In this document: positions 898 to 38,480 of the stretch, one piece after another
How the letters are laid out: each line of letters starts with the position of its first letter
Numbering within the stretch: the stretch's first letter is position 1
Source: a virus
Strand: one strand, 5' to 3'
Virus record (IMG/VR): IMGVR_UViG_3300024346_004143
Location: 1-39,480 of that record
Length of the DNA: 39,480 nucleotides
Translations under genes and position numbers: made by a program
The notes under the pieces: generated by a model
Databases searched by the model: none
What the model saw: only the letters and a program-made list of their open reading frames with translations
Told to the model about the DNA's origin: nothing

Positions 898-2298
898 ATG
901 GAACACAATAAAGATATCATTGCATTTCAAAAAAAGATTAACGATGTTAGTCCTAGTTTTTGCATTGCCAAATGGAAGCAAGTAACCTTGCATTTACAAA
1001 CAGGTCACAACCACAGTTGCCACCACCCTACTACGCATAAAATTCCTTTAGATGAATTGGCTGCCAATCCCAGCGCATTACATAATACGAACTTTAAAAA
1101 AGAACAACGTAAAAAAATGCTGGAAGGCGAGCGTCCAAAAGAATGCGACTATTGTTGGAAAGTAGAAGACAGCGCACCAGATGCACTCAGCGATAGAATC
1201 TACAAGAGCTATGACGTATGGGCAAAGCCTCACTTCGATGAAGTTCGTAATTTGCCTTGGGACAGTAACGTTGTTCCTAGTTATTTAGAAGTTAGTTTTA
1301 GTAATGTCTGTAATTTTAAATGTAGCTATTGCAGTCCACAGGTCAGCAGTCTATGGATGGAAGAAGTCAAGCAACATGGTCCTTATCCAACACACGGTAA
1401 ATTTAATGACATTGCCGGACTTAAACAAATTGATCAAATGCCAATTCCGCATAATCAATACAATCCTTATGTGGAAGCATTTTGGAAATGGTGGCCCAGT
1501 GTTTATAAAGAGCTACAGCATTTTAGAGTAACAGGCGGAGAGCCGCTGTTAAGTAAAGATACGTTTAAGGTTTTAGATTATGTAATCGAAAATCCCAATC
1601 CTGATATACATCTAAGTATTAACAGCAACTTGTGTGTGCCACCACAGTTGTTTGATAGATTTCTTGAAAAGGTTAAAATCATCTGCGAAGAAAAGAAAGT
1701 TAAAAAGTTTAAAATTTTTACAAGTTGTGATGCACACGGAGCCGCCGCAGAATACATTCGCGATGGTTTGAATTACGAACTATGGCTAAGTAACATTCGC
1801 AGAGTGTTAAAAGAAATTCCCGAATGTACGATTACCATTATGAGTACCTACAATGTTTTAAGTGTACCTACATATTCGTTGTTCTTACAAGATGTGTTAG
1901 ACATTAAAAATGAGTTTGGAGGACACGATGCAGTTCATGCTCCGTTAATTTTAGATGCCCCGTTCTTAAGACATCCTGCACATCAAAGCATCTTTCATGT
2001 CATGCCTTCAGCATGGGCCAATGAATATATTTTCGACCAAGTAACAATGATGTATCGTAATTTAGAAAACGGAGAATGGTACGGAAGTGCTAATCAAGGA
2101 TTCTTTAAATGGGAAGCTGAAAAGTTTAAACGTATATATGAATTAACAATGAATCAAACAGATCCCGAAGAAGTAACTGTATACCAAAAAGACTTGGTGG
2201 CATTTGTTGATGAGCATGATAAACGTCGTGGCACTAACTTCTTAGCTACATTTCCAGAGTTTGAACCTTACTATACTAAGTGGAAAAATGCAAAATGA
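898..2298 (+). CDS. Radical SAM protein with N-terminal twitch-like cysteine cluster (SCH subgroup)
   Basis: 466 aa. Predicted to bind a [4Fe-4S] cluster and S-adenosylmethionine through CNFKCSYC (C138, C142, C145), followed by SPxxSSLW and the SAM-binding TGGEP motif (G213-P216). The N-terminal region carries C22, the SCHH element at C41 and a CDYC pair (C83, C86). These resemble the half-SPASM ('twitch') auxiliary cluster site placed ahead of the rSAM barrel in the N-twitch rSAM family. The C-terminus carries RRGTNF..TFPEF, a tail shared with most rSAM proteins in this window. Closest in-window relatives by N-terminal signature (KW, SCH, HNT, SDR) are the genes at 19543 (minus) and 33345. 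It overlaps the next gene by ATGA, which suggests translational coupling to the glycosyltransferase-like genes. The substrate is unknown. Confidence 0.9.
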   Translation: MEHNKDIIAFQKKINDVSPSFCIAKWKQVTLHLQTGHNHSCHHPTTHKIPLDELAANPSALHNTNFKKEQRKKMLEGERPKECDYCWKVEDSAPDALSDRIYKSYDVWAKPHFDEVRNLPWDSNVVPSYLEVSFSNVCNFKCSYCSPQVSSLWMEEVKQHGPYPTHGKFNDIAGLKQIDQMPIPHNQYNPYVEAFWKWWPSVYKELQHFRVTGGEPLLSKDTFKVLDYVIENPNPDIHLSINSNLCVPPQLFDRFLEKVKIICEEKKVKKFKIFTSCDAHGAAAEYIRDGLNYELWLSNIRRVLKEIPECTITIMSTYNVLSVPTYSLFLQDVLDIKNEFGGHDAVHAPLILDAPFLRHPAHQSIFHVMPSAWANEYIFDQVTMMYRNLENGEWYGSANQGFFKWEAEKFKRIYELTMNQTDPEEVTVYQKDLVAFVDEHDKRRGTNFLATFPEFEPYYTKWKNAK

Positions 2299-3140
2299 GA
2301 GTGGCTATTTGTCTAAGTGGTCAGCCACGTACCTGGGAAAAATGTTATCACACGTGGATTAAACTGATAGATACAATTAAACAAACGTATCAAGTAGATG
2401 ATGTTGATATTTTCTGTCATTTATGGGATTTTAATACCCCGCCTCATAGATTATTAATGTATGAAGGTTGGGATTACGCCACAGTTCCTGGAGAGCCTAT
2501 ATCAGAAGAAGAAAAAATTAGACTAATCAATGCCTTAAATCCAAAAAAATATTTATTTGAAAATGAACGTTCAAATAAAAACAAAATTGAAGAAACTCGC
2601 AGTCGAAATATGCCGCATATCAACGAGCACGGACAGACTAATCTAGAATGGGTATCAGGCCAGTTTTATAGTATAATGTACGCTTGTCATTTGAAAAAAA
2701 TGTATGAATTTGAAAATGATTTTAGATATGATGTTTGTATACGTATGCGAACAGATATGTTTTTTGAAGACTATCAAGTAAAGCATTTCGTCTCTTACGA
2801 TTTAGTTTACCCGGAAGTCAACACATTTTATAGCTGTCATACTACTAAAGATGCTATACAGTTTCCTTTTCATAGATTAGGTGACGTATTTTGGTATGCT
2901 GACTCTGTTACATTTAACAGGATCTGCGATTTTTATAGATGGTTGCCTATTATAGGTAAAAAAAGCTTCAATAATAATTTAGTAGGTACTGAACATTCTT
3001 TATATTTTTATTCTAAAATGTTAAACATAGAAATATCGCCGTTGACTTTTGACCCTAAAATTTATAGAGGCCGAGACTATTTAAATAGAAAAATAAAATC
3101 AGGATTAGAAGGAGAGTTGGGAGACCATGAGCTTATTTAA
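2295..3140 (+). CDS. Glycosyltransferase-like protein, SGQ-R-W family, copy 1
   Basis: 281 aa. The ATG at 2295 is chosen over an in-frame GTG at 2280 because it gives the family N-terminus MRVAICLSGQ and a 4-nt ATGA overlap with the upstream stop. Motifs are SGQPRTW (residues 8-14), HLWD (42-45) and YDVCIRMRTD (residues 145-154; R150, R152, D154). The last segment resembles the YDx(I/V)IRxRxD signature seen in several glycosyltransferase-type families, where the aspartate is expected near the donor sugar. Paralogues in this window are at 3127, 5776 and 6374. No signal peptide or membrane segment is seen. The role as a sugar transferase is an inference; a different nucleotide-dependent transferase is possible. 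Confidence 0.75.
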   Translation: MRVAICLSGQPRTWEKCYHTWIKLIDTIKQTYQVDDVDIFCHLWDFNTPPHRLLMYEGWDYATVPGEPISEEEKIRLINALNPKKYLFENERSNKNKIEETRSRNMPHINEHGQTNLEWVSGQFYSIMYACHLKKMYEFENDFRYDVCIRMRTDMFFEDYQVKHFVSYDLVYPEVNTFYSCHTTKDAIQFPFHRLGDVFWYADSVTFNRICDFYRWLPIIGKKSFNNNLVGTEHSLYFYSKMLNIEISPLTFDPKIYRGRDYLNRKIKSGLEGELGDHELI

Positions 3141-4053: not shown

Positions 4054-4057
4054 AAGA

Positions 4058-6387: not shown

Positions 6388-7216
6388 AATTGCAGTTTGC
6401 ATAAGCGGACAATCTCGTACTTGGGAATATTGTAAAGATAATATTCTTCATTTCTATGACATAACTGAACATGCTCAGGACCACGTAGAAGTTGATTATT
6501 TTTTGCATACATGGGATATTAATTCGTATAGGGATCATGTATCTGGAATCGAGTATACTAATTTCAGAGATGAGCCGTTCAACGATGGTAACAGACTAAT
6601 TGAAGCATTCAGTCCGAAAATAGCGGAAGTAGAAAGTTACAGCGACTTTATTGCTAATAGAAATTTACAATATCCCAATTCCCCGTTTACTGCATGGGAA
6701 TCAATGTATCATAGTATCAAGAAGAGTATAAATTTTAAAAGACAATACGAGTTAGACAACAATTTTGAATACGACTTAGTTATTAAAACAAGATTTGATT
6801 GTATATATGATCCTAGTACAAAGTTTATTGCATATATTCCCGAAGTTATGAAAGCATATACTTCATATAATATTTCAAGGATACTAAACGAGTTTAATTC
6901 TAATAATTTTGATGAAGCAATATTTTTTGGAGAAAGCAGAACTGTTGATTTGATATCTGCGGCTGGAGATTTGCATATGTTAAATCGATCTACAAAAGAA
7001 CATCAATCAACAATAGAATTTGATATTTTGCCTGAAGTGTTCTATGGACCCGGTGCATTGATATATAAGCATATGACTGATATGAATGTATGTCCCAGTC
7101 ATCACTTTGTTCCGTTTATATATGTGGTTGCAAGATTGCACACAGTTAGTTCTGGATTAAATCCTATGACTGATTGGCCACAGGTTGTGCAATCTTGTAA
7201 GGATTGGTATATATGA
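6374..7216 (+). CDS. Glycosyltransferase-like protein, SGQ-R-W family, copy 4
   Basis: 280 aa, ATG overlapping the previous stop by 14 nt. Motifs are FRIAVCISGQSRTW (SGQ at 11-13), HTWD (45-48), YDLVIKTRFD (K138, R140, D142) and NNFDEAIFFGES. It is the closest relative of the product of 3127 but lacks its N-terminal extension and proline hinge. Both share a C-terminal PGALIYKHMT / PGCLLYKYMT stretch. The reading frame ends in D-W-Y-I and its stop overlaps the start of the methyltransferase gene (ATGA). Likely a nucleotide-sugar-using transferase; acceptor unknown. Confidence 0.75.
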   Translation: MKNFRIAVCISGQSRTWEYCKDNILHFYDITEHAQDHVEVDYFLHTWDINSYRDHVSGIEYTNFRDEPFNDGNRLIEAFSPKIAEVESYSDFIANRNLQYPNSPFTAWESMYHSIKKSINFKRQYELDNNFEYDLVIKTRFDCIYDPSTKFIAYIPEVMKAYTSYNISRILNEFNSNNFDEAIFFGESRTVDLISAAGDLHMLNRSTKEHQSTIEFDILPEVFYGPGALIYKHMTDMNVCPSHHFVPFIYVVARLHTVSSGLNPMTDWPQVVQSCKDWYI

Positions 7217-8346
7217 ATATAATTACTAGAACAACTGATGCTATTACCAATGCCTACGATTTAGAAAATCTACATATAATAAAAAATTTTCCAATTTTAA
7301 TGAGTTGTGTTAGTCATGATAAAGATGTTGACGTAGTTTCAGATTTAATATGGCAGATTAGTCCAAGCTCGGGACTTATACAACTTAAAGAATTAATTCC
7401 TTTGGATATTTTGTATAGGGAACAGCACAGCGGGACAACCGGTGATTTATGGTTAAAACATCATCAGTCTTTTTCAAAGTTTTTACAAAAGTATAAACCT
7501 AAGGCAGTATTAGAAATAGGTGGCGGACATGGTATACTTTCCACTGACTACGTTCAATATGATTCTATTCCATGGACAATAGTAGAGCCAAGTCCCGCGC
7601 CAGTCGATGGGTGCCCGGCAAAGATTATCGTAGCATTGTTTGATGAACATTTTGAATTTCAAGGAGATTTTGATACAATAGTTCATAGCCATGTATTTGA
7701 ACACTTGTATCAACCCAATGCATTTGTTAAACATTTAGCCAACATAATGAAAGATGGAAATCAACTTATCTTTACATTGCCTAACATGGAAAAAATGTTA
7801 AAAAACAATCAAACTAACTGTATTAATTTTGAACATACCGTATTTTTAACAGAGCCATATGTAGAATATTTGTTGGCAAAACACGGGTTTAGAATTATTG
7901 AAAAAGAATACTTCACAGAATGCCATAGTATATTTTACGCAACCGTTAAAGATAGCACAGTTGTTACAATTGAACTATCTAAAGAGTTGTACAACACCAA
8001 CAAACAAATATACATAGATTACATTGACTATCATAATAAACTGATCAATGATTTAAATAATAAAGTGCAAGAAATTGATGGACCTGTTTACTTATTTGGA
8101 GCACATATCTTTTCACAATATCTTTTGGTATGCGGTTTAGACGGTTCAAAAATTACAAGTATTCTTGATAATGATCCGAAGAAACAAAGTAAGAGATTGT
8201 ATGGAACAGATTTGAAAGTAGAATCTCCAATTTTATTAAAAGACATAAAAAATCCAGTTGTTATACTTAAGGCTGGATTTTATAACGAAGAAATTAAAAA
8301 AGATATTCTTAGTAATATCAACGCAGGTACAATATTTTTAGAATGA
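7213..8346 (+). CDS. SAM-dependent sugar C-methyltransferase-like protein
   Basis: 377 aa from the ATG at 7213 (ATGA overlap); an upstream in-frame TTG at 7204 is less likely. The SAM-binding motif VLEIGGGHG lies at residues 99-107, with VHSHVFEHL further on as the usual post-motif. The C-terminal part has LFGAHIFSQYLL and SILDNDPKKQ, matching the C-methyltransferase C-terminal domain that follows the methyltransferase core in NDP-sugar C-methyltransferases of the NovU/TylCIII type. The N-terminal zinc-finger cysteines of that family are mostly missing. The likely reaction is methyl transfer to a carbon of an activated keto-sugar. It is followed after a GAGG-type ribosome site by the cupin gene and heads the sugar-metabolism run. 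Confidence 0.8.
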   Translation: MNIITRTTDAITNAYDLENLHIIKNFPILMSCVSHDKDVDVVSDLIWQISPSSGLIQLKELIPLDILYREQHSGTTGDLWLKHHQSFSKFLQKYKPKAVLEIGGGHGILSTDYVQYDSIPWTIVEPSPAPVDGCPAKIIVALFDEHFEFQGDFDTIVHSHVFEHLYQPNAFVKHLANIMKDGNQLIFTLPNMEKMLKNNQTNCINFEHTVFLTEPYVEYLLAKHGFRIIEKEYFTECHSIFYATVKDSTVVTIELSKELYNTNKQIYIDYIDYHNKLINDLNNKVQEIDGPVYLFGAHIFSQYLLVCGLDGSKITSILDNDPKKQSKRLYGTDLKVESPILLKDIKNPVVILKAGFYNEEIKKDILSNINAGTIFLE

Positions 8347-8352
8347 GGATAT

Positions 8353-8793
8353 ATGGAAATTAAAAAAGTAACCAAGCATTGGGGTCACGAACTTTGGATC
8401 GCAGACGGCTCTGCTACTCCATATGCAAGTAAACGCATTCTATTCAAAGCCGGTAATAGAACTAGTTTACAAGTACACGAATACAAAATAGAAACTAATT
8501 ATGTACTAAGCGGCACAGGTATTTTACATCGTAGTCGAGAACCACTAGACATTGTCAAGTTTTTAGAACAAGGTATGACAAGTAAACAAGTAGAAGAGTA
8601 TGAAACAACATTTGATGTTATAGAACTCGAGGAAGGCGTTGTATTTAATGTTACACCTGGATATGTGCATAGGGTAATAGCAACTACTGACCTAGAGTTC
8701 ATGGAAACTAGTACCACTGAACTCGATGATGTAATTAGACTACAAGATGATGGCGGAAGAACACACGGAAGAATTAGCTACGAACATGAGTAA
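8353..8793 (+). CDS. Cupin, mannose-6-phosphate isomerase type II-like
   Basis: 146 aa, preceded by GAGG about six bases upstream of the ATG. The protein is a single cupin barrel: the W-G-HELW start, QVHEYKIETNYVLSG as first cupin motif and VTPGYVHRV as second. This is the pattern of the C-terminal isomerase domain of mannose-1-P guanylyltransferase/phosphomannose isomerases and of stand-alone cupins in sugar loci. Metal-dependent sugar-phosphate isomerisation or epimerisation is plausible. It overlaps the nucleotidyltransferase/kinase gene by 8 nt (ATGAGTAA), which supports joint expression in a sugar-activation pathway. Confidence 0.75.
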   Translation: MEIKKVTKHWGHELWIADGSATPYASKRILFKAGNRTSLQVHEYKIETNYVLSGTGILHRSREPLDIVKFLEQGMTSKQVEEYETTFDVIELEEGVVFNVTPGYVHRVIATTDLEFMETSTTELDDVIRLQDDGGRTHGRISYEHE

Positions 8794-10318
8794 TACTGTT
8801 ATTATCCCAACTGCTGGAACTGGCAGTAGAATGGGCAACTACACTAAAAATCTTAATAAAGCATTGTTGCCTTATAAAGACAAACCCGTGTTAGCACATA
8901 TTATTGATAGCTTTCCCAAAGACAGCAAATTTATTGTTCCCGTTGGATATTTAAAAGAACAAATTATAGACTTTTGTAAGGTAGCATACAGCGATAGGAA
9001 CATAGAATTCATAGACATTGATGATTGGACTAGTGCAAAGTCTGGTACTGGATATACTTTATTACAATGTCGAGATTTAATTAATACAGCCTTTTGGTAT
9101 GTACCCTGCGATACATACTTTGACGAACAGGTAGTAAGTAAAGTCAATAACAATGATTGCTATTTTGTCAAGCAAGTGCCCGAGCAAGACACCCATCTAT
9201 ATACAATGTTTAACACTGGAAATAGTTTCCATATCACAGATATTAGATTTAAACAACCTGCTCCTAAGTTTTGGACTGCATTCACAGGACTGATGTACAT
9301 CAACGATTACACAAGTTTCTTTGATAAACTGGAAGCTAGTAATAGTAACGAGTTTATTGGTATTATTAAAGTAGGCAGTGACACCGCTGGCCTTAACACT
9401 TGGTTAGACTTTGGCAGCCCGTCTGTGTATCAAACTGAACTCAGCAAGAGTCAAAAGTTTGACTTCACTAAAAAGGACGAAGTAACTTACATATGTAACA
9501 ACCGTGTAGTTAAATGGTGGCTAGATGACAGCATAGCAAAAAAGAAATACGATAAAGTATTGGCCAATCCTTATGTATTCCCTGCCAATTGTACATACAG
9601 CGGTAACTATATGGCCTATGATTTCTTTCCTGGCAAGACCCTCTATGAATTCAATAACCCTGTAGCGTTTGGTGAACTGTTAAATTGGTTAGAAACTAAT
9701 GTATGGAAAGACTGTGATGCTGATATACATGATGCAAGTATGGAGTTTTATAAAACAAAAAGCCTTGCACGTATTAATAAGTTCTTAGAAAAGTATCCTA
9801 ACATAAAAAATGTTACTAACATTGACAATGTTACAGTTAAAGATTATAGTTACTATCTAAATAAGATAGATTGGGAATATTTAGCCACTGTGACTCGCCC
9901 TGGCTTTCTGCATGGCGATTTGCAGTTTGATAATATTGTCGTCAGCGACAGTGGAGAGTTTAAGATCATAGACTGGCGTCACGAGTTTGCAGGCCTAGTT
10001 GAATACGGTGATATATACTACGACTTGGCTAAGATGGCCGGAGGTTTGATTATTAACTATGCCAATATTAAGAATCATAACTTTAACATTGAAATTGACA
10101 ACGACAGCGTTACGCTGAGTATTCCCAGCGTCGAGCATATTACAGTATATCAAGAACGTTTAAAGAAATATATTTTAGCCAACAATTTAGATTATAATAA
10201 AGTACAACAACTAATACCAATTATTTTTTGGAACATGAGTCCTTTGCATACTGCACCATTTGATATATTCTTATGGTACTTGGGCATTAAATTATTTGCG
10301 GAGTTAGACAATGAGTAA
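8786..10318 (+). CDS. Bifunctional nucleotidyltransferase / aminoglycoside- or choline-kinase-like phosphotransferase
   Basis: 510 aa from the ATG at 8786, chosen over 8747 because it places the NTP-transferase start MSNTVIIPTAGTGSRMG at the N-terminus. Residues 1 to about 225 form a MobA/GlmU-like nucleotidyltransferase: GTGSRMG loop, K25/K-P region NKALLP, and a CDTYFD metal-binding segment. The C-terminal half is an APH/choline-kinase fold with LHGDLQFDN (H376-G-D378 catalytic loop) and IDWR (D396, metal binding). The fusion would phosphorylate a small alcohol or sugar and then activate it as an NDP derivative. Similar pairings occur in phosphocholine and sugar-phosphoramidate loci, but the substrate cannot be told. 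Both junctions are 8-nt ATGAGTAA overlaps. Confidence 0.82.
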   Translation: MSNTVIIPTAGTGSRMGNYTKNLNKALLPYKDKPVLAHIIDSFPKDSKFIVPVGYLKEQIIDFCKVAYSDRNIEFIDIDDWTSAKSGTGYTLLQCRDLINTAFWYVPCDTYFDEQVVSKVNNNDCYFVKQVPEQDTHLYTMFNTGNSFHITDIRFKQPAPKFWTAFTGLMYINDYTSFFDKLEASNSNEFIGIIKVGSDTAGLNTWLDFGSPSVYQTELSKSQKFDFTKKDEVTYICNNRVVKWWLDDSIAKKKYDKVLANPYVFPANCTYSGNYMAYDFFPGKTLYEFNNPVAFGELLNWLETNVWKDCDADIHDASMEFYKTKSLARINKFLEKYPNIKNVTNIDNVTVKDYSYYLNKIDWEYLATVTRPGFLHGDLQFDNIVVSDSGEFKIIDWRHEFAGLVEYGDIYYDLAKMAGGLIINYANIKNHNFNIEIDNDSVTLSIPSVEHITVYQERLKKYILANNLDYNKVQQLIPIIFWNMSPLHTAPFDIFLWYLGIKLFAELDNE

Positions 10319-15659: not shown

Positions 15660-15660
15660 A

Positions 15661-20847: not shown

Positions 20848-20864
20848 ATAAATATATTTATATG
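20845..20864. promoter_or_regulatory. Perfect palindrome with two opposed TATAAATA elements between divergent starts
   Basis: CATATAAATATATTTATATG is its own reverse complement; its two ends are the start codons of the divergent genes (minus ATG at 20847-20845, plus ATG at 20862-20864). TATAAATA, identical to the T4 late promoter element, is at 20847-20854 on the plus strand and 20862-20855 on the minus strand. Each ends seven bases before the start codon it would serve, so transcripts would be almost or fully leaderless. Confidence 0.6.
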
Positions 20865-23475: not shown

Positions 23476-23510
23476 AGTCTTAAACTTGTTGATATTTTAA
23501 TGTTAGTTTG

Positions 23511-23518
23511 TTAAATAC
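23511..23518 (+). promoter_or_regulatory. T4-late-like promoter element TTAAATAC
   Basis: In the 47-base gap 23476-23522. TTAAATAC ends four bases before the ATG at 23523. Same element as at 13919 and on the minus strand at 31261. No Shine-Dalgarno sequence is seen, so a leaderless or near-leaderless message is suggested. Confidence 0.5.
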
Positions 23519-23522
23519 TACT

Positions 23523-27966: not shown

Positions 27967-27970
27967 GCAT

Positions 27971-29227: not shown

Positions 29228-31256
29228 CGCGATTAAGGATCTCAGGAACAATAGATTGTCCTGAATTCTTTCTAACTTTATCCATAGAATCTATATAATT
29301 AATAAAGTCCCTAGAAGAATCTTTACTGCCTTCGGCTTTACTAATTAGTTGTTCTAATTTAAGTAAGCTAGCACCTATACACTCTGGAATGCCACCTAAA
29401 TCTGCGTATTTTACAACAAACTCTTCTCGATAGGCATTAACCCATGTTAGCACATCTGAATAGTATTCTTTTGGCAATATATTTAGATTGATATAGCTAG
29501 GATCATGCGCCGGCTGTAATTTAAAGAATCCATCATATTCAGTTGCCAGCAAGCTGGATCTAAAAACAGTAATTTTATTACCCGAATCTTTATATTTGTC
29601 CATCCACCATGTCATCAGTTTAGGTATTTCTAATATGCTTAATACACTCAATGTTGTTGACATAATAATACTAATATTTTCATGTTGTTTGCCAAATGCC
29701 AGCCAATGATCAATGGCATTACTAACAGTTTGTTTAGCATCACCTTCCCAAATACTTCCATAACGAATATAGTCATTGGCTTGACCAAACGCATCAATGC
29801 TTAGATTTAACTGTACAGCTTCAAACTTAGCTAGATTTTCTAATAACTTGGGACTAGGGATATAACTGCAATTGGTATATATTTCTAAGCTAATCTGTGC
29901 TGGTCTGCCTTTTTCACAGATTAAGTCAATGAATTTAATGAACTCTGGATTTATCATAGGCTCGCCGCCAGTGAATTTAATAACACGCAAAGTCTTTAGT
30001 GTTTCTTCATTGGGAACAAATTTTAAGTTATCTAATTTTTGAAATACTTGACGTTTAATATTTTTATTTACAATTTGATTTAATTCTAATTCATCGTTAT
30101 GCCATGTCGTACTCAGTGAGCTGTTGCAAGTTAAACAAGCTAGATTGCAATAGTTACCAAAGCCTACTTCTAAAAATTCTAATTTTGGTTCTGCATATTT
30201 GGGTCGCTTGTGTAGAAAGCCTTCATTATATAAGATAGCAGAACCTAAACGCATACTTTGTTGTACTTCGCCTTTAGTTCCCTGTTCTTCTTTATAACAT
30301 TTGTAACATCCTACTAAAGGAGTCTTGTCTACAGTATAATCTCTTGCGGCACTCCAGTAATCTCCAAAGAAGCTTTCTTCCATGGTATTAGTTTGTATTG
30401 TGGATTTTTCTCTGTTTGGACTAAGTTTTAATAGCATGTCGGTGCTATTTGGTTCTTTGGAAGCTCTGTGGGCTTCGTCACCAATATCATACCGACAACA
30501 AAGTTTACTTTGTCCAGTTGGCTTGTACTGAATGTGCATCCATGGAAGTATGCAGGAGCTAGGATTACGTTTAGTATATAGTTTGCCTGAAAAGTCTTCT
30601 TCACTTAAATTATCAGTTGTGGCAATCTGGGTCACACTGGGATACAACTTAATATTTTTAAGCCACAGATTATGTAATATATTATCAATGGCATCTTGAT
30701 ATTTTGCAGAATCATAGCCTTCTGGATTAACATCAATCTTTACAAACTGACTTAGTTTTTTTCTTAGATGCGGTAAACGGTCCAAGAATGTAATAAACTG
30801 TGTATTATTTTCTATGATGTCAATGTTCAAATAAGTAAAATGACAGTTCTTGAAGCTATTCCACGATTCTGTAAAATTATCGTAGTCGTATCTTATAGTT
30901 TTGTCTAATGGAGAATTCTTTTTATATCGTAGCACAAAAGGTGCGCCTTCGAGGTTAAACTTAGTTAATCCTTGTTCAATGTAATTAAGTAGTCCAGAAT
31001 AATCATATTCTTGATTGGTTTCTACTTTACCATCCCATGCTAGTAGATACTTGAACATTTCAATATGTGTGGGATTCTTATCGTAAATGATAAAGTGCAA
31101 AGGCTCATTATCTCTATTTTCTTTTCGTTGGCCAATACTTCTAACCAGCATATTAAAAATGCTGTCAGCTGGACCTATAAATCTAGTAAATGTATTATTT
31201 AATACGCCCTTACCGTGGCTTGCTTCGTGTTCTTTTATAATTGAAAATGGCTTCAT
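29193..31256 (-). CDS. Large radical SAM protein with extra N-terminal domain (FCIxPW subgroup)
   Basis: 687 aa from the ATG at 31256; the open frame upstream to 31505 would overlap the nitroreductase and has no family support. Residues 1 to about 230 are an additional region not seen in the other rSAM proteins; it contains LHFIIYDKNPTHIEMFKYLL and a FVKIDVNPEG segment and is unrecognised. Then follow SCILPWMHIQYKPTG (C235), LCC (C253, C254), CYKC (C317, C320), the rSAM site CNLACLTC (C370, C374, C377) and TGGEP. The tail is RKNSGQSIVPEI plus 13 residues. A minus-strand TTAAATAC element lies four bases upstream of the start. The extra domain may bind the substrate. Confidence 0.88.
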   Translation of the reverse strand: MKPFSIIKEHEASHGKGVLNNTFTRFIGPADSIFNMLVRSIGQRKENRDNEPLHFIIYDKNPTHIEMFKYLLAWDGKVETNQEYDYSGLLNYIEQGLTKFNLEGAPFVLRYKKNSPLDKTIRYDYDNFTESWNSFKNCHFTYLNIDIIENNTQFITFLDRLPHLRKKLSQFVKIDVNPEGYDSAKYQDAIDNILHNLWLKNIKLYPSVTQIATTDNLSEEDFSGKLYTKRNPSSCILPWMHIQYKPTGQSKLCCRYDIGDEAHRASKEPNSTDMLLKLSPNREKSTIQTNTMEESFFGDYWSAARDYTVDKTPLVGCYKCYKEEQGTKGEVQQSMRLGSAILYNEGFLHKRPKYAEPKLEFLEVGFGNYCNLACLTCNSSLSTTWHNDELELNQIVNKNIKRQVFQKLDNLKFVPNEETLKTLRVIKFTGGEPMINPEFIKFIDLICEKGRPAQISLEIYTNCSYIPSPKLLENLAKFEAVQLNLSIDAFGQANDYIRYGSIWEGDAKQTVSNAIDHWLAFGKQHENISIIMSTTLSVLSILEIPKLMTWWMDKYKDSGNKITVFRSSLLATEYDGFFKLQPAHDPSYINLNILPKEYYSDVLTWVNAYREEFVVKYADLGGIPECIGASLLKLEQLISKAEGSKDSSRDFINYIDSMDKVRKNSGQSIVPEILNRVKEYLLTLDTQ
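29242..29273 (+). terminator. Candidate terminator hairpin of the 23523-29227 operon
   Basis: TCAGG-A-ACAA (29242-29251) pairs with TTGTCCTGA (29256-29264): nine base pairs with one bulged A and loop TAGA, followed by ATTCTTTCT. It lies 14 bases past the plus-strand stop, inside the minus-strand rSAM gene. The T-run is broken, so strength is uncertain. Confidence 0.4.
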
Positions 31257-31260
31257 GTAT

Positions 31261-31268
31261 GTATTTAA
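31261..31268 (-). promoter_or_regulatory. T4-late-like promoter element TTAAATAC, minus strand
   Basis: In the 84-base divergent gap 31257-31340. Read on the minus strand, TTAAATAC ends four bases before the ATG at 31256, the same arrangement as at 23511. Confidence 0.5.
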
Positions 31269-31293
31269 CGCTTGTAAATTAAATTTGTAGGCA

Positions 31294-31301
31294 CTAAATA
31301 C
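31294..31301 (+). promoter_or_regulatory. T4-late-like promoter element CTAAATAC
   Basis: Plus-strand copy in the same divergent gap, 39 bases ahead of the nitroreductase ATG. Unlike the other operon heads, this one leaves room for a normal leader of about 30 bases that includes a Shine-Dalgarno sequence. Confidence 0.45.
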
Positions 31302-31328
31302 TGATAACAATATTAATTGTTTCGATTT

Positions 31329-31333
31329 AAGGA
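31329..31333 (+). promoter_or_regulatory. Shine-Dalgarno sequence AAGGA
   Basis: AAGGA seven bases before the ATG at 31341. It decides this start over the in-frame upstream start at 31317. Confidence 0.7.
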
Positions 31334-31340
31334 AAATATT

Positions 31341-32084
31341 ATGAGCAGAGTTCATGAACTTATTAAGAATAGACATACAACTCGTTTGATGACTGATGCA
31401 ATCAAACCAGAAGATGTCCAAACTATTATGGAATCGGCACGCCGAGCCCCTAGTAAAAATAAAATTTACGGATACAAAGTAATAGCATTGACAAACAGCG
31501 AGCAAGGTAAAAAACTAAAGCAAGTATTGTGCGATGATATCACTTTGTATGAAGAAGACGACAGCCGTATCATTTATTTAAAACAAACTTTGGCACCGCT
31601 GGTTTTGATATATGTTGCTAACCCAGCACCAGAACATCAAATGGTAAATGTTAAAGAAGAACACGGCGAAGAAGTATTCGACAGTTGTTACAGCGATGTA
31701 AAAGGTGAAGCTGATCGTTATGCTATGATTAAAAGTAGCGTTCGCGATGCTATGATCAGTGCAACTTACGCACAACTTACAGCAGAAGATTTAGGCTATG
31801 GTACAGCATTTGTAGCCTGCGGTTTAGAAAGTGTTATGAGTAATCGTCAATTTCACGATCTCTGGGTCAAAGAATTTGGCGCAGATTATAAACAACAACC
31901 CGTTGAATCTGTGGTATTAATGTGCATTGGTCCTAAACATGAAAAGATCACAAACTTATACAATGGCACAGATACTGAACGTAAGGAGGCTTATCTAAAT
32001 GGTGAGACTCACTATCGTCGTGCAGGCCGTGAAGAAAGTTTTTTTGTAAATAAAAAACAAGAAGCGATGTTCACTGAAGTATGA
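31341..32084 (+). CDS. Nitroreductase-family FMN oxidoreductase
   Basis: 247 aa from the ATG at 31341, placed by AAGGA upstream. The N-terminal HELIKNRHTTRLMTD and MESARRAPSKNK are the FMN phosphate-binding Arg/Ser region of the nitroreductase fold. AMISATYAQLTAEDLGYGTAFV is the central helix with the usual A..LGxG pattern, and a late VVLMCIGPKHEK strand follows. Members use NAD(P)H-reduced FMN to reduce nitro, quinone or enone groups, dehalogenate, or make other redox changes. It heads the operon 31341-39031 and overlaps an rSAM gene by ATGA, so it might reduce an intermediate or supply electrons; this last point is speculative. Confidence 0.85.
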   Translation: MSRVHELIKNRHTTRLMTDAIKPEDVQTIMESARRAPSKNKIYGYKVIALTNSEQGKKLKQVLCDDITLYEEDDSRIIYLKQTLAPLVLIYVANPAPEHQMVNVKEEHGEEVFDSCYSDVKGEADRYAMIKSSVRDAMISATYAQLTAEDLGYGTAFVACGLESVMSNRQFHDLWVKEFGADYKQQPVESVVLMCIGPKHEKITNLYNGTDTERKEAYLNGETHYRRAGREESFFVNKKQEAMFTEV

Positions 32085-33352
32085 GCAAAAAATGTTGGGT
32101 ACCTTATAATGAGGTAAACATTCTAGTTGGTCAAGGCACATTAAATTATTGCTGTAAAGTAAGCAATGAATGGATGAGTCTTGACCACGATATTTCTCAT
32201 GGCTCGGAAATTGTTTCCAACAATAAACTAACTGCTTTCCGTCAAGGATTATACATAAAAGGTATGCCGATGGCATGTATGGCTTGCAGAGTATCCGAAC
32301 TAGAAGGTAGTTTGAGTTGGAGACAGCAAGAAGGTATTGTGCCTCCACAATTTGATAATCAAACAGACTTAATGTCTAACTCTGCATATTTTAATCAAAT
32401 CAACATTTATTTTGACAATCATTGTGATAGTGCCTGTTTATACTGTAATGAAGATTATAGTAGCAAATGGGAAGCTGAAAAGATACGCAATGGTGAAACT
32501 TGGTTAGAAGATAGAAGTAATACTAGAAAAACAAACTATCAATCTAGAATACAAAAAATTCATGAGTTTTTAATAAAAGCAGGTGAAGAGATTCCTAAAA
32601 AAATACCAGGACAACTTTTATACGAGATCGGCGTAAACCTAACTTTTTTAGGCGGCGAACCCTTATTAAGTCCCGAACTTCGAGATGGAAAGTTAGAAAC
32701 ATTTATTGATGATTTTTATACTCATGCTCCAAAAGATTATAATGTCACAGTGACTATACATACTAATGCAAATTCAAATAAGTATGTATTAGATAGATTT
32801 TTTCAATCAATTGAAAATTTAAAAAATAAATATCCTAGATTAAATATTAAAATAGTAATGAGTATCGAGTCTATTGGAAAAGCGTTAGATTATATTCGTT
32901 ATGGAAGTACATGGCATCAGGTAGAAGAAAATGTTCATAGATATATGTCTAACAAATCTATTTTCATAGTTTCATTTAATCCAACATTTAATATTTTAAG
33001 TTTACCAAACAGTCCTGAATACTTCAAGTGGCTAGTTGGTATTAAAGAACAATACAATGATAGAGAGTTATTTGTTTCTTCTAATGTAGTATTCAGTCCA
33101 ATGTACCTTAATCCTTATAATGCCAGCGAATATTTTAAACCACAAGTACTCGAATCTTTAGAAATAATTAAAAATAACAAAGACAAGTTTGAACTTGGTT
33201 CATACAATAACTTAGTCAATAGATTTGAAGATTTGCACAAAAATATGCAAAAACGTTTGCTTCCTGAATTTGTCGAAATGATCGAGTACGTTAAAAAAAA
33301 TCGTAACATGGACATTGCCGATTATATCCCAGACTGGGAGAAAAATGTCTGA
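32081..33352 (+). CDS. Radical SAM protein with N-terminal twitch-like cluster (CCK subgroup)
   Basis: 423 aa. N-terminal NYCCK (C24, C25) and CMAC (C66, C69), then SLSWRQQEG, as in the 18355 product (PSWRIQQ). The rSAM site CDSACLYC is at C115, C119 and C122, followed by NEDYSSKWE and LGGEP. The tail is weaker, reading KKNRNMDIADYIPDW. It is coupled to the nitroreductase by ATGA and to the next rSAM gene by an 8-nt overlap (ATGTCTGA). Substrate unknown. Confidence 0.88.
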   Translation: MSKKCWVPYNEVNILVGQGTLNYCCKVSNEWMSLDHDISHGSEIVSNNKLTAFRQGLYIKGMPMACMACRVSELEGSLSWRQQEGIVPPQFDNQTDLMSNSAYFNQINIYFDNHCDSACLYCNEDYSSKWEAEKIRNGETWLEDRSNTRKTNYQSRIQKIHEFLIKAGEEIPKKIPGQLLYEIGVNLTFLGGEPLLSPELRDGKLETFIDDFYTHAPKDYNVTVTIHTNANSNKYVLDRFFQSIENLKNKYPRLNIKIVMSIESIGKALDYIRYGSTWHQVEENVHRYMSNKSIFIVSFNPTFNILSLPNSPEYFKWLVGIKEQYNDRELFVSSNVVFSPMYLNPYNASEYFKPQVLESLEIIKNNKDKFELGSYNNLVNRFEDLHKNMQKRLLPEFVEMIEYVKKNRNMDIADYIPDWEKNV

Positions 33353-34571
33353 TCATTGGTTTCCTGTTCCTTCTAATAATGCGTGTTTATTAAAGTGGAG
33401 TTGGAGCAGTTTATATCTTTGGACTGGTACTAGTAGCAGTTGTCATAGAGTACAAAATGTCAAAGTGCATGATATAGAACAATTTCATAATACTCCTGAA
33501 GTTATAGAAGATCGTCGTAGAATGTTAGCCGGGCAATGGCCAGGAAGAGGTTGTGAAAGTTGCAGAGATCAAGAACAATACAGCGGCTTTAGTGATAGAA
33601 AGAAATGGTTGTCATCTGAAAATAATAAAAAATATGTGCCAATGGAGTTGTATCAAAATCCAACTCAGCTAGTAACTAATCCTACTATGGTAGAGATTTA
33701 TTTTAATAATAAATGCAATCTAAAATGTTTGTATTGCGGACCATTTTTAAGTAGTGCTTGGCAACTTGAGGAACAACAATTTTCAAACATACAATATAAA
33801 GAACAAAATAATGCGTTATATAATCAAAATTTAACAGGCTTTTATCGCTGGATGGAAAACAACTACGCTAAAGTTAAGGAGTTTCATATATTAGGTGGTG
33901 AACCTTTTATACAAAAAGAAACATTTGACTGTATAGATTGGATGTTGGAACATCCTAATATGGATTTAGATTTTGAAATATTTTCTAATATGCAGATCAA
34001 GCCCGAATTGTTTAAAAGAAATATGGAAAAAATTAAACAACTAACCAAGGTTACTAACAGCGTTGAAATAACAGCAAGTATAGATTGTTGGGGACCCGAA
34101 GCAGAATATATTAGAACTGGACTAGACTTGGTAGTATTTAAAGAGAATATGGAATATTTAATTTATGAATGTCCAGAAGTCATACCAACCATGAACTGGA
34201 CAGTTTCATCATTATCTATTCCTACTACTGCTGAACTTGTCGAGCAAGTTATTCATTGGAACAAAACAAAGCCCAATCCCGAACAAAGAATAGCTGTTAA
34301 CTATAACAAATGTATTGAACCCGAATTAATGGATCCGCATATAATGCCGCCGGGAACGTTTGCTAAAGAATTTTCTAATCTAATAGAATTAAATAAAGAG
34401 ATGATAGACAATGATTTATATAGGGAATACGTAAAGTCTATTTTTACAGAAATAGATAGTAGTCCGTCTAAACCTGATAAGATTACTGAACTAAAGAAGT
34501 TTTTAGATAAAATGGACTCAAGGCGTGGAACAAATTGGCATATAATGTTTCCTTGGCTTGATGGTATATAA
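33345..34571 (+). CDS. Radical SAM protein with N-terminal twitch-like cluster (SCH subgroup)
   Basis: 408 aa from the ATG at 33345 (8-nt overlap); an earlier in-frame ATG at 33315 adds residues without family similarity. CLLKWSWSSLYLW (C14), SCHR (C33), FHNTPE and CESC (C70, C73) mark the N-terminal cluster. The rSAM site CNLKCLYC is at C124, C128 and C131, followed by GPFLSSAW and LGGEP. ASIDCWGPEAEYIRTGL and the tail RRGTNWHIMFPWL match the minus-strand gene at 19543 very closely, so the two are recent paralogues on opposite strands. Confidence 0.9.
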   Translation: MSDHWFPVPSNNACLLKWSWSSLYLWTGTSSSCHRVQNVKVHDIEQFHNTPEVIEDRRRMLAGQWPGRGCESCRDQEQYSGFSDRKKWLSSENNKKYVPMELYQNPTQLVTNPTMVEIYFNNKCNLKCLYCGPFLSSAWQLEEQQFSNIQYKEQNNALYNQNLTGFYRWMENNYAKVKEFHILGGEPFIQKETFDCIDWMLEHPNMDLDFEIFSNMQIKPELFKRNMEKIKQLTKVTNSVEITASIDCWGPEAEYIRTGLDLVVFKENMEYLIYECPEVIPTMNWTVSSLSIPTTAELVEQVIHWNKTKPNPEQRIAVNYNKCIEPELMDPHIMPPGTFAKEFSNLIELNKEMIDNDLYREYVKSIFTEIDSSPSKPDKITELKKFLDKMDSRRGTNWHIMFPWLDGI

Positions 34572-35785
34572 TGACACAACATACAACTTATTGTTCAAAA
34601 TCGTGGACTGACATAAACATTGATTTTGAAACACGCAGTCTTCGACATTGCTGTAAGGCGCAGCCAGAAACGTTTCCAATTAAATTGGATTTAAAATTTA
34701 TTAATAATAGTGATAATATACAACAACGACGTTTAGACAGTCTTAATAACATAGAGCATCCTGATTGCTCTGATTGTTGGGACAATTATAGAGATACAAA
34801 TAGTGCTTATAAAGATTGGGTCAACAAGTGGGACGATGACTATATAAGTAAAAATCGCAGTTTATTAGAACAGAAAAATTCAGATCAGTTTACACATTAC
34901 ATAGAAATAAAAACTGATAAAACTTGTGACATGAGTTGTATATATTGCTCATCTTTTAGCAGTAGTAAAATAGCGCAGGAGGAAGGAATTGAAATACTAG
35001 ATTCTACAAATAAAAATGATTATGATGTATTTAAACAATGGATCTATCAACATATTACTCAAGAAGAAATAAAATCAAAGGTTGTTGTTTTTATGTTTTT
35101 AGGCGGCGAGCCGACTGCCAGTGAAAACTTTTACGACTTGGTTGATTATATAGAATCATTGGCTAGCAAAACAGATAAAATTATTAGAGTAGAAATATGC
35201 ACCAATGCTAATAGCAAAAAGTATCTAATGGATAAAATTATTAATAAAATGGACACTAGTAAACTATCTTGGGGAATTGGCATAAGCAATGAAAGTTATG
35301 GTGAAGTATCTGAGTTAATACGACATGGCCTAGACTGGCAACGATTTGAAGAAAACTTTAGAAGGTATATTCAACATGCAAAAACAGATGTAATTGTGTT
35401 AAGTCCTAGTGTTAACATTTTTAACTTAAAACATTTTTACAAATATGTTAAATGGGTGTATGAACAATTTAAAGTGTATGCTCCGGAAAAAGAATTTATT
35501 TGGTATGGCAACTTTATTAATCGCCCCGGAGCGATGGACATAGCAAATCTTCCGGCTTCATACATTAAATATGTAGAGTTAGCAAGAAATGTTGCATTAG
35601 AAAATACCAGTTCTAAACAAACATATCAAGATGAATTCTTTAAATATTTTGATAGCATGGCGTCTCGAATTAATTCATCATATGATCCAAATTATAAAAT
35701 ACTTGCAGAACAATTCTTACTTAAAAAACAAGCAGTAAAGAAAACAGACAAACTAATCAAACTAATGGAAAATTTAGACCTATGA
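34571..35785 (+). CDS. Radical SAM protein with N-terminal twitch-like cluster (CCK subgroup)
   Basis: 404 aa, start sharing one base with the upstream stop (TAATG). RHCCK (C27, C28) and CSDCW (C66, C69) form the N-terminal cluster region. The rSAM site CDMSCIYC is at C119, C123 and C126, followed by SSFSSSKIAQEEG and LGGEPTA. The family FPEL tail is absent; the protein ends in a lysine-rich helix VKKTDKLIKLMENL. It overlaps the 77-residue orphan gene by ATGA. Substrate unknown. Confidence 0.87.
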   Translation: MTQHTTYCSKSWTDINIDFETRSLRHCCKAQPETFPIKLDLKFINNSDNIQQRRLDSLNNIEHPDCSDCWDNYRDTNSAYKDWVNKWDDDYISKNRSLLEQKNSDQFTHYIEIKTDKTCDMSCIYCSSFSSSKIAQEEGIEILDSTNKNDYDVFKQWIYQHITQEEIKSKVVVFMFLGGEPTASENFYDLVDYIESLASKTDKIIRVEICTNANSKKYLMDKIINKMDTSKLSWGIGISNESYGEVSELIRHGLDWQRFEENFRRYIQHAKTDVIVLSPSVNIFNLKHFYKYVKWVYEQFKVYAPEKEFIWYGNFINRPGAMDIANLPASYIKYVELARNVALENTSSKQTYQDEFFKYFDSMASRINSSYDPNYKILAEQFLLKKQAVKKTDKLIKLMENLDL

Positions 35786-36015
35786 TAGACCTTGACATAA
35801 TGCCATTAAGAGTGTTACAATTAGAAGCCGCTAGAATTATTAGTAGCATGGAAGCTACTAATGATAACATATACAAGTTTAACAAAGAAAGCAGACACGA
35901 TAGTACAGGCTGGTACAAGGCTGCTATTAAATGGTATATTGCAGAATACGGCGGATTACCCAGTGAAGCAGGCCCCGGAAAAGAAGTAAAATTTATATAC
36001 GAACAAAATGAGTGA
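35782..36015 (+). CDS. Small unrecognised protein between rSAM genes
   Basis: 77 aa, ATGA overlap with the upstream rSAM gene and 8-nt overlap with the downstream one, so it is almost certainly translated. The first half is helical (MPLRVLQLEAARIISSME); the second half has GWYKAAIKWYIAEYGG followed by a Gly/Pro-rich turn LPSEAGPGKEV. No cysteines, signal peptide or membrane segment. I do not recognise a family. Its place between two rSAM genes allows a role as a partner or carrier protein, or less likely as a modified peptide substrate (it has W, Y and K residues near the end), but nothing proves either. Confidence 0.7.
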   Translation: MIDLDIMPLRVLQLEAARIISSMEATNDNIYKFNKESRHDSTGWYKAAIKWYIAEYGGLPSEAGPGKEVKFIYEQNE

Positions 36016-37174
36016 TTTAAAAACCAGTGAATACGACTTTACTAAGATACCTTACAGTGACTTAGTTAGGGTTGGACAAAGAACAATGCTATATCGTGAC
36101 ATGTTTACAGTGTCTTGGCTATTGGGACGCTACTGTAACTATCGTTGTAGTTACTGTTGGCCGTATGCCCGCAGTGATACAAAAGATCACCGTCCTACTC
36201 CTTTAATGTTACACACAGTAGATGAAATCAAACGTCAAGCTAGAGCAAATGGATTCAATAGTTTTCACTTTAGTCTAAGTGGCGGTGAACCAACATTCCA
36301 TCCTGCTTATATTGACATCCTTAATCATCTAAATAACGATGCTGTCAATACAAACTATACCAGCGTACATATGACCAGTAATATGAGTCGCCCTATGAAA
36401 TGGTTTGAAGAACAGTATGTGCCAGCAGTCAAAAACTTTCATCGTGCTAGTATTACAGCCAGTTGCCATCGTGAACATGTCGACACAGATAAGAAAGTAG
36501 AAGATTTTGCAGACAAACTAGTGTTATGTCAAGAATATGACACACAAATAACTATCAACATGGTTATGGTACCCGAGCAGTTTAATGAGATATATGACTT
36601 ATCGTTGTACTTCCATAACAGAGGTATTAATGTAACACTCAAGCCACAAAGCGATCCCACTGCTAGCAGAGTTGTAGATGGTTACACTCCTGAGATGTTA
36701 GCAAAATTACACAATGGCATGCCGCAACGTGCTTATACTGAAGAGAAAGCATTAAAGTCAGGACTTGTACAACGACCCAAGCCGACATTTATGATTGACA
36801 AGGCAGATACACAGCGTAAGAAACAAGTAGACATTGATCCACATTATCAAATCGAATTTATTGATAAAGAAGGCAAGCCCTGGTTCATGGACCAAGCAGA
36901 ACGTTTTAACGCATTTAACTTTAATAACTTTAATAAGTGGGAATGTAGCAGTGGCTTTCGCAGTATTATTATTAGAGAACCTGATGGTACAGTAAAACGT
37001 AGTTATAGCTGTAGCGAAGTTCCTTTAGGACATATTGAAACCGGCTTTAAGTTATACGATAAGCCTATGCCCTGTGGTGGCACAAGTTGTGTAAGTAGTG
37101 CAGATAGTAAGATTCCAAAACGTGCTCCTGGTACTAAGTTGCCGTTGTTTCCGGGAGATAAAAGTTATGAGTAA
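36008..37174 (+). CDS. Radical SAM protein of a separate type with C-terminal cysteine cluster
   Basis: 388 aa. No twitch region: the rSAM site CNYRCSYC (C43, C47, C50) follows a 40-residue lead with VSWLLGRYCN, then FSLSGGEPTFHP (GGEP 92-95). The C-terminal part has C313, C335, C356 and C361 (WECSSGF, SYSCSE, CGGTSC), a SPASM-like arrangement with shorter spacing than in the 17186 type. HVDTDKKVEDFADKL and NMVMVPEQFNEIYDL resemble general rSAM barrels of the MoaA/SPASM kind. It shows richer GC codon use than the two genes before it. Its start lies 8 nt before the orphan's stop, and its own end overlaps the next rSAM gene by ATGAGTAA. Substrate unknown. Confidence 0.88.
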   Translation: MSDLKTSEYDFTKIPYSDLVRVGQRTMLYRDMFTVSWLLGRYCNYRCSYCWPYARSDTKDHRPTPLMLHTVDEIKRQARANGFNSFHFSLSGGEPTFHPAYIDILNHLNNDAVNTNYTSVHMTSNMSRPMKWFEEQYVPAVKNFHRASITASCHREHVDTDKKVEDFADKLVLCQEYDTQITINMVMVPEQFNEIYDLSLYFHNRGINVTLKPQSDPTASRVVDGYTPEMLAKLHNGMPQRAYTEEKALKSGLVQRPKPTFMIDKADTQRKKQVDIDPHYQIEFIDKEGKPWFMDQAERFNAFNFNNFNKWECSSGFRSIIIREPDGTVKRSYSCSEVPLGHIETGFKLYDKPMPCGGTSCVSSADSKIPKRAPGTKLPLFPGDKSYE

Positions 37175-38480
37175 TACGTTTTGTCCTATCCCGTGGAACT
37201 TCCAAGCAGTTCGTAACAATGGTGATATCCGTGTATGCTGTCAAGCAAACGTAACAGAGAATCAAGGAGTGGTTAGACACGAAGATGGAACTCCTTATAA
37301 TGCTGGCCGAGACAATATGGAACTAGCCCGTAATGCCACTTTAATGAAAGAAGTTCGTAAGAACATGTTAGTGGGTGAGTGGAGTCAAGAGTGCGGTCGT
37401 TGCCAAAGTGAAGAATCTAGTGGACTTAACAGTCGTAGACAATACGAATTAGATAACTGGAAATTCAGCATTGATGATGCTCGTTATATAACAGACGAAG
37501 ATGGTAGTATTAAAGATAGAAACTTAGAATATTATGATCTACGTTTTGGTAATTTGTGTAATCTAGCTTGTCGTATGTGCGGACCCACCGACAGCCATAC
37601 TTGGTATGAACAGTGGACTGAATATCACGGCAGCGACGAATACAAAGATACACACGGAACAGTTAAACTAGAACGTAATGAGAATGGTAGATTGTCTACC
37701 ACAGATTATGATTGGCATAACAGCGAGTCTTTTTGGACACAGATAGAAGCCAACATTCCAAACATCAAGCATGTTTATATGGCAGGCGGCGAGCCTATGA
37801 TGATTGAACGTCACTACGAGTTTCTACAAAAATGTATTGATGCCGGTCAAAGTAAGAAGATGATCATAGAATACAATACTAATATGAGTAACTTACCCAA
37901 ACGTGTATTAGATATGTGGACACAGTTTAAACAAGTACGAGTAGGCGCCAGCATGGATGGCATGGGCGAAACAGTTGAATATCAGCGTTGGCCTTTAAAG
38001 TGGAGTCAAGCATACAAGAACTTGCAGAAACTAGATGAATACGCAGAAAAGAATCCAAACATACTTGCTTGGTTGGCATGTACAGTAACGGCTTATAACA
38101 TTTGGCACGTGCCTCGTTTTATGAAGTGGAAGTTACAAGACAGCGGCTTTACTAAAATTAACAGTACTAAGAAGCGTCCTATTATAACACATCACGTAGC
38201 ACACGGACCAAAGCGTGTTAATGTACGTGTATTACCCACAGATATGAAACAAGAGATTGTTGAATACTATGCTAAATGTATCTCAGAGTTTAAAGCTGAG
38301 TATCCAGAAGACATTGCTAAGAATGCAGAAAACATATTAAACAGTATTACAAAATATATGCTAGGTGCAGACTACAGTGATAAGTTACCAGAGTTCGTTA
38401 AGTTTACAAAGTACTTGGATCAAGCCCGTGAGCATAGCATATTAGACATTGCACCAGAATATAAGAGGTTGTTTGAATGA
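37167..38480 (+). CDS. Radical SAM protein with N-terminal twitch-like cluster (FCIxPW subgroup)
   Basis: 437 aa from the ATG at 37167, with GGGAG upstream and an 8-nt ATGAGTAA overlap; an open frame from 37098 is rejected. TFCPIPWNFQAVRNNG (C6), VCC (C24, C25) and CGRC (C76, C79) form the N-terminal cluster region. The rSAM site CNLACRMC is at C131, C135 and C138, followed by GPTDSHTW and AGGEPMM. The tail reads REHSILDIAPEYKRLF. Its layout and internal motifs (YYDLRFGNLCN, YDWHNSESFWTQ) are closest to the 23523 product (YIDMRFGTKCN, YNWHKNNPEFWTQ). Overlaps the SDR-like gene by ATGA. Confidence 0.9.
   Translation: MSNTFCPIPWNFQAVRNNGDIRVCCQANVTENQGVVRHEDGTPYNAGRDNMELARNATLMKEVRKNMLVGEWSQECGRCQSEESSGLNSRRQYELDNWKFSIDDARYITDEDGSIKDRNLEYYDLRFGNLCNLACRMCGPTDSHTWYEQWTEYHGSDEYKDTHGTVKLERNENGRLSTTDYDWHNSESFWTQIEANIPNIKHVYMAGGEPMMIERHYEFLQKCIDAGQSKKMIIEYNTNMSNLPKRVLDMWTQFKQVRVGASMDGMGETVEYQRWPLKWSQAYKNLQKLDEYAEKNPNILAWLACTVTAYNIWHVPRFMKWKLQDSGFTKINSTKKRPIITHHVAHGPKRVNVRVLPTDMKQEIVEYYAKCISEFKAEYPEDIAKNAENILNSITKYMLGADYSDKLPEFVKFTKYLDQAREHSILDIAPEYKRLFE

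Follow-up and report, generated by a model that had tools for sequence, protein, structure and literature searches.

The virus record IMGVR_UViG_3300024346_004143 of IMG/VR (39,480 bases, linear, analysed over its whole length and called the window below) holds about 40 densely packed genes, almost all on the + strand, of which fifteen encode radical S-adenosylmethionine (rSAM) enzymes and make up 50.1% of the DNA. Genes are named here by their first coordinate and lie on the + strand unless marked (-). Three of the rSAMs (17186, 23508 and 36008), a family of GT-A glycosyltransferases and gene 16317 constitute a conserved backbone. The other rSAMs, with SGNH-like, 2-oxoglutarate (2OG)-oxygenase-like and nitroreductase partners, are exchangeable cassettes inserted between the backbone genes. 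The five backbone families also occur together on chromosomes of Bdellovibrionota. Since the backbone resides on chromosomes of these predatory bacteria as well, the island is probably an exchangeable kit by which the virus builds or alters unusual surface sugars. It is this backbone and cassette structure that is new here. A search limited to open-access literature found no earlier account of a backbone common to phages and Bdellovibrionota, although one may exist elsewhere.

Across 80 phage loci the recurrent order is carbamoyltransferase, GT-A genes, 16317, 17186, cassettes and 23508, followed by further cassettes, 35782/36008, 37098, 38477 and ThyX. The anchor of the island is 23508 (23508..24926; NF033640, 424.9 bits), an rSAM of the N-terminal twitch (N-twitch) type with homologues on at least 127 IMG/VR contigs. 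The rSAM 17186 (17186..18358) is present in nearly all relatives. Of the 80 loci, 70 have GT-A family members, 64 a member of the class of 36008 (36008..37174) and 59 the gene 16317 (16317..17186). The product of 16317 (family A4) is possibly SAM-binding and spermidine-synthase-like, two of 29 members matching Spermine_synth; in a PDB profile search the sole matches were designed armadillo repeats, aligned to the helical N-terminal portion. The N-twitch rSAM 37098 (37098..38480; NF033640, 382 bits) is frequent near the backbone: 61 of the 80 loci contain a gene whose best match it is. Next come a short-chain-dehydrogenase-like gene (38477..39031), whose homologue L106:6922-7500 matches PF13561/PF00106, and a partial ThyX gene (39020..39478, -; PF02511, 1.2e-23), the DNA-metabolism border of the island. 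A small phage-specific protein, 35782 (35782..36015; 77 amino acids), is conserved in 40 of the 80 phage loci. Its 21 homologues have 17 invariant residues, and its motif ATNNNI..FN..A.H.S..WY matches no known family. It changes place between two backbone positions among these loci, some of which have it after 16317 and before 17186.

The presence of 18355, 19543, 24919, 32081, 33315 and the SGNH-like genes varies even where 23508 is more than 84% identical, and the N-twitch proteins of the 80 loci form a pool of 112 representatives at 55% identity. An earlier note on this sequence had proposed that the rSAM genes are coupled in operons and form a dedicated tailoring system rather than a set of stray genes. 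The conservation of the backbone over 80 loci bears out the coupling and the coherence of the system, but neither its uniqueness nor the full list of substrates suggested for it.

All fifteen rSAM genes listed in that note are open frames with exactly one CX3CX2C motif each (0.055 are expected in a shuffled proteome of equal size), and Pfam and NCBIfam searches, taken together, identify every one of them as an rSAM protein. Twelve carry GGEP, the variants being GNYGDP in 17186, GTIDDP in 21593 and GVYGDP in 26902. In the phage lineages L024, L032, L040, L078 and L080, the orthologues of 23508 have GGES or GGEA in place of GGEP. PF04055 (Radical_SAM) matches 14 of the 15: ten over the curated cut-off, 37098 at the borderline and the remainder weakly. 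The sole exception, 18355, matches NF033640 at 2.6e-39. The coordinates of the earlier note were mostly exact; the starts given as 23523, 33345 and 37167 differ from 23508, 33315 and 37098 only by upstream TTG or GTG codons, and the frame of 29193 (-), overlong as listed, probably begins at about 31256, since its orthologues begin at residue 84.

The anticipated mix of rSAM types is also present, in three classes, each with four additional conserved cysteines that form a candidate site for an auxiliary cluster. Alignment to NF033640 defines an N-twitch class of eleven proteins (898, 18355, 19543, 23508, 24919, 27971, 29193, 32081, 33315, 34571 and 37098). The curated cut-off of this model, 170 bits, is passed by nine of the fifteen; 34571 (167.5) and 18355 (135.5) score under it and four are clearly outside. 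A C-terminal SPASM-like class comprises 17186 (PF04055; C287/C306/C307/C374 invariant), 21593 and 26902, and 36008 (PF04055, 1.4e-13) represents a third, with C313/C335/C356/C361 invariant in its C-terminal part. The four-cysteine site thus precedes the barrel in the eleven N-twitch proteins and follows it in 17186, 21593, 26902 and 36008. An alignment of 63 N-twitch proteins shows no variation at C15, C96, C99 or the three cysteines of the cluster motif, and almost none at C33.

Positions 6-79 of the N-twitch profile resemble the twitch domain of BtrN (residues 164-240; 6e-7), and the N-terminal domain of the class resembles the domain at the C terminus of 17186-type rSAMs (92.6%, E 4e-7; no match with controls). 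From these matches it follows that the N-twitch proteins are circularly permuted SPASM/twitch enzymes of the BtrN type, as the name of the known family NF033640 already implies. An AlphaFold2 model of 23508 (pLDDT 88) matches the rSAM barrels of BlsE, anSME, viperin, MoaA and SkfB with Z scores of 11-12; this is the one protein of the fifteen that was folded, the other 14 being assigned by sequence.

The GT-A family (A3) has three backbone members in the window, 13934, 14649 and 15619 (13934..16335). A fourth gene (2..895), truncated at its 5' end, is homologous to 14649 (44%), is syntenic with genes resembling 898 in the relatives G001 and G003, and in relatives stands at the side of the island nearest the tail genes. 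The AlphaFold2 model of A3 adopts a GT-A fold. Its best Foldseek match is a PBCV-1 glycosyltransferase (9.6e-4), VIA Z scores against GT-A enzymes reach 10.7 across 142-144 residues, and the DxD motif is invariant in the alignment. GT2 Pfam models match 7 of 34 members. Fold prediction and motif together thus identify the family as putative GT-A glycosyltransferases.

Homologues of 23508 were sought among 84,980 prokaryote genomes. Among the matches listed, the closest cellular ones are almost all from Bdellovibrionota (57-64% identity), and the rSAM orthologues of this group are 43-65% identical to those of the window. Ten Bdellovibrionota genomes encode orthologues of both 23508 and 36008, adjoined by 17186, 16317 and/or GT-A genes; 36008 has one orthologue in nine of them and two matches in G056. 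GT2 glycosyltransferases are among the neighbours of these clusters. None of the ten genomes has a T4 portal gene and the surrounding genes are ordinary chromosomal ones, so that a prophage or mis-binned phage DNA was rejected as the source in these cases. Among 144 Bdellovibrionota genomes, seven have 23508 and twelve have 16317, which is present in all seven (Fisher p 3.6e-9, uncorrected for kinship). Two equal-sized homologous Bdellovibrionota proteins also have CX3CX2C in their N-terminal part: L110:14153-15658 combines it with a GT2 glycosyltransferase domain recognised by Pfam, and L112:13684-15186 stands beside the same rSAM backbone.

Trees that include phage and Bdellovibrionota homologues were built for 23508, 17186 and 36008. 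In that of 23508, the phages are nested in a Bdellovibrionota grade, next to Bacteriovoracaceae/Halobacteriovoraceae (support 99/96, with a long outgroup branch), whereas in those of 17186 and 36008 they stand apart from Bdellovibrionota. The cellular clusters and the trees therefore indicate that the module is old and common to phages and Bdellovibrionota. Contigs of metagenome-assembled genomes (MAGs) may be mis-binned, and six of the bacterial matches probably are phage contigs: L103, L105, L116, L118, L120 and L121 cluster with phages in the 23508 tree, and L118 and L120 also bear the T4 portal gene. The MAGs that contain these six contigs are filed under Neisseriaceae, Planctomycetota, Rickettsiales, Gammaproteobacteria, Chloroflexi and Acidimicrobiaceae.

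The viral origin assumed for the window stands. Relatives with island synteny encode the T4 Gp23 capsid protein and the T4 portal, and a cellular contig, which the earlier note had named as a possible refutation, is thereby ruled out. Large relatives reach 343 kb; among 16 relative records Gp23 is encoded in nine and the portal in eleven, neither being present in the window fragment. ThyX ends the island in G001, G003, G004 and G006, as it does in the window. On the other side of the island, G003 has tail-fibre-like genes, a virion protein of 2910 amino acids (phrog_10938, 1.6e-180) and a baseplate wedge (phrog_10646, 7e-266), and G006 and G018 have a similar giant gene and small tail genes of the same kind. 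The features of a pelagimyophage-type host recognition cluster (a hypervariable region with tail-fibre neighbours and glycosyltransferases) are found in G003, G018 and G006. The window covers most of one such hypervariable island, belonging to a large T4-like phage and sited among its host-recognition genes.

The leading explanation, to which we give about an even chance, is that an unusual group based on sugar is synthesised by the island and attached to a surface, probably that of the host, or that a glycan there is altered. The BtrN-type domain of the N-twitch class and the neighbouring nucleotidyltransferase-kinase, carbamoyltransferase, aldolase-like and shikimate-dehydrogenase-like genes suggest that the rSAMs may act on sugar carbons. 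The sugar nucleotidyltransferase fused to an APH-type kinase (8747..10318; PF12804, PF01636; TIGR03992/AglF-like), of the type acting on nucleoside diphosphate sugars, and the NolO/NodU-type carbamoyltransferase (12437..13909; PF16861, 1.3e-53; phrog_1601, 3e-102) lie within the same operon-like run. It also includes SnoaL-like, shikimate-dehydrogenase-N-like and GatZ/KbaZ-like aldolase genes (10311..12440; PF12680, PF08501 and PF08013). In such a pathway the aldolase-like, shikimate-dehydrogenase-like and nucleotidyltransferase-kinase enzymes would supply a sugar or cyclitol in activated form, and its unactivated C-H positions would then undergo oxidation, epimerisation or deoxygenation by the rSAMs. 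The GT-A enzymes would then transfer the modified sugar, and carbamoyl and methyl transferases would finish the product. The outcome could be an altered envelope of the infected cell, for example against superinfection.

Several observations weigh against this proposal. Twitch and barrel folds held in common do not fix the chemistry, and the closest solved structures include the peptide-modifying enzymes SkfB, anSME and SuiB. The BtrN match is weak and limited to one small domain, and 16317 has no secure family. Genes of Wzx/Wzy-type polymer export were not seen in the window, and the tail-side adjacency is known from relatives, without a direct view in the window fragment. A more ambitious version, which is tentative and which we would not expect to hold, describes a combinatorial locus: a fixed rSAM and glycosyltransferase backbone, exchanged between Bdellovibrionota and T4-like phages, would make a new sugar or cyclitol surface group that the cassettes diversify in the manner of O-antigens. 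If this were true, viruses would be using radical chemistry in the arms race at the cell surface.

The main rivals of the carbohydrate reading are a small-molecule product and a virion target. In the first, the backbone would make a diffusible metabolite or cofactor (resembling an aminocyclitol, a nucleoside or a redox cofactor) for the predator and the phage-infected cell, and no envelope glycan. Indeed, the relatives BtrN, BlsE and MoaA are small-molecule enzymes, the window has aldolase-, shikimate-dehydrogenase- and SnoaL-like genes, and an inosamine-phosphate amidinotransferase occurs in the rSAM clusters of Campylobacter phages. However, each island has three to four paralogous GT-A genes, and the bacterial clusters have GT2 neighbours; both suggest transfer to a glycan, and we consider this explanation unlikely. 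Less probable again is that the system modifies virion proteins, such as tail fibres or the giant protein encoded next to the tail genes, through glycosylation or through rSAM chemistry on the protein backbone and so shifts host range. In its favour, relatives have genes for tail fibres and virion structure directly beside the island, but the five-family backbone sits on Bdellovibrionota chromosomes in genomes without T4 portal genes. The ancestral substrate is therefore probably not the phage virion, and a purely virion substrate is disfavoured. Among the glycans, lipids or proteins of virion or envelope that the earlier note had considered, glycans are favoured because of the GT-A fold.

It is improbable that the island is simply a place where auxiliary genes without relation to one another have gathered, acting in no joint pathway. 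The cassettes turn over strongly between close relatives and the rSAM paralogues of the window are mostly 21-30% identical to one another, but the backbone families keep the same order from phage to phage and are found together in bacteria. A RiPP-like system (ribosomally synthesised and post-translationally modified peptides), in which the rSAMs would modify 35782 as a possible precursor peptide, is very unlikely, although the small protein with its 17 invariant residues adjoins the rSAM 36008 and the rSAMs resemble maturases of the SkfB/SuiB type. 35782 is missing from the Bdellovibrionota clusters and was therefore rejected as an obligatory substrate of the bacterial system; it occurs in only half of the phage loci, and no genes for a RiPP recognition element, protease or exporter were recognised. 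A DNA hypermodification pathway, to which ThyX and the carbamoyltransferase might point, can practically be dismissed, since searches showed no gene for TET/JBP, a hydroxymethylase or a DNA glucosyltransferase, the ThyX gene that borders the island is one that phages ordinarily carry, and the backbone resides on bacterial chromosomes.

The N-twitch cassettes, in addition to 18355 (18355..19566; complete cysteine set), are 19543 (19543..20940, -; NF033640, 241 bits), 24919 (24919..26088; 315.8; N-terminal SPASM PF13186, 1.7e-7), 27971 (27971..29227; 320.5; N-terminal SPASM, 1.6e-9), 29193 (29193..31505, -; 238.8), 32081 (32081..33352; 173.4), 33315 (33315..34571; 234.1) and 34571 (34571..35785). 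The long N-terminal extension of 29193, of about 230 residues ahead of the N-twitch rSAM, is conserved in its orthologues and its fold is unrecognised. Two further cassettes have C-terminal SPASM-like sites: 21593 (21593..22666; PF04055, 4.3e-8; alignment A2) and 26902 (26902..27966; PF04055, 5.3e-11). Their partners include two SGNH-like paralogues, 20862 (20862..21596; no Pfam match; 35% identical to the other) and 22663 (22663..23475), and a nitroreductase-family protein (31317..32084; PF00881, 1.7e-8). The gene 26081 (26081..26905), with an invariant HxD...H...K (alignment A7), is by motif a probable 2OG-Fe(II) oxygenase, an oxygen-dependent enzyme amid oxygen-sensitive rSAM genes.

The left part of the window begins, after 2..895, with the N-twitch rSAM 898 (898..2298; NF033640, 340.5 bits; Cys 22/41/83/86 and CNFKCSYC). 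Between 2280 and 7216 lie four paralogous putative transferases (2280, 3127, 5776 and 6374; weak DUF7796 matches), diverged and likely a second transferase family, interspersed with two SGNH-like/DUF6071 genes (4013 and 4963; weak DUF6071 matches, SGNH from GDS-type motifs only). A SAM-dependent methyltransferase (7204..8346; PF13489, 2.3e-15) and a cupin (8353..8793; weak PF07883/PF01050) follow. PHROG searches added little for most window genes other than the rSAMs, and PDB profile searches with families A3, A6 and A7 gave nothing usable. A nucleotide search found no known phage matching the window. In a phage collection, protein searches with 14649, 35782 and 36008 had zero matches, and 23508 reached only 22% identity, with Vibrio phages K566/K567.

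That some phages carry expanded sets of rSAM genes has been on record since 2010, with no substrate assigned to them. The fixed backbone beside GT-A genes turns fifteen anonymous enzymes into a five-family pathway open to expression, knock-out and assay, and the N-twitch set is a large reservoir of unexplored enzymes. If the product were an envelope glycan, this would be a phage-borne radical-chemistry route to remodelling of the host surface.

Among known enzymes, the closest family is NF033640 (N_Twi_rSAM, NCBIfam), with which eleven of the fifteen window rSAMs align along most or all of the model, sharing the N-terminal FC...PW...G...CC...CxxC as well as CX3CX2C and GGEP; 17186, 21593, 26902 and 36008 differ in belonging to other classes. 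The NCBIfam entry names no function for the family. By profile search, the N-twitch class has a twitch auxiliary domain in common with BtrN (2-deoxy-scyllo-inosamine dehydrogenase) and an rSAM barrel in common with BlsE. Compared with BtrN, the domain order is permuted: the auxiliary site is N-terminal in the N-twitch proteins of the window and C-terminal in BtrN.

The rSAM density of the window, which had been presented as exceptional, is typical for its phage group: 3.8 rSAM genes per 10 kb compare with a mean of 4.4 in related loci longer than 20 kb, some related 21-kb loci have 14 rSAMs, and related records (chosen through 23508) have 5-22 N-twitch rSAMs each. From this density and from published phages with 11-12 rSAM genes, it follows that the rSAM count is not new in kind, and the idea that rSAM-rich phages are unheard-of does not hold. 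The Campylobacter phages CP220/CPt10/F379, T4-related like the window, have 11-12 rSAM genes in one phage (PMC2853527), clustered in exchangeable five-gene modules with nucleotide-diphospho-sugar transferase and amidinotransferase neighbours. Unlike the window, they have a lower rSAM density, no similarity to 23508 that could be found and no common backbone shown. The available text on the marine T4-like genome TARA_ERS488813_N000010 gives it 12 rSAM genes (PMC5332604), and that on pelagimyophages such as Mosig EXVC030M places rSAM cassettes and glycosyltransferases in a hypervariable host-recognition cluster by the tail fibres (PMC7029224), both in line with the island described here; these texts, to the extent available, contain no description of the five-family backbone or of its occurrence in Bdellovibrionota. 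Mosig EXVC030M, an isolated Pelagibacter phage, carries a smaller analogous module near its tail-fibre genes, adjoining VrlC, with three MoaA-like genes, an aminotransferase, a carbamoyltransferase, a methyltransferase and two nitroreductases.

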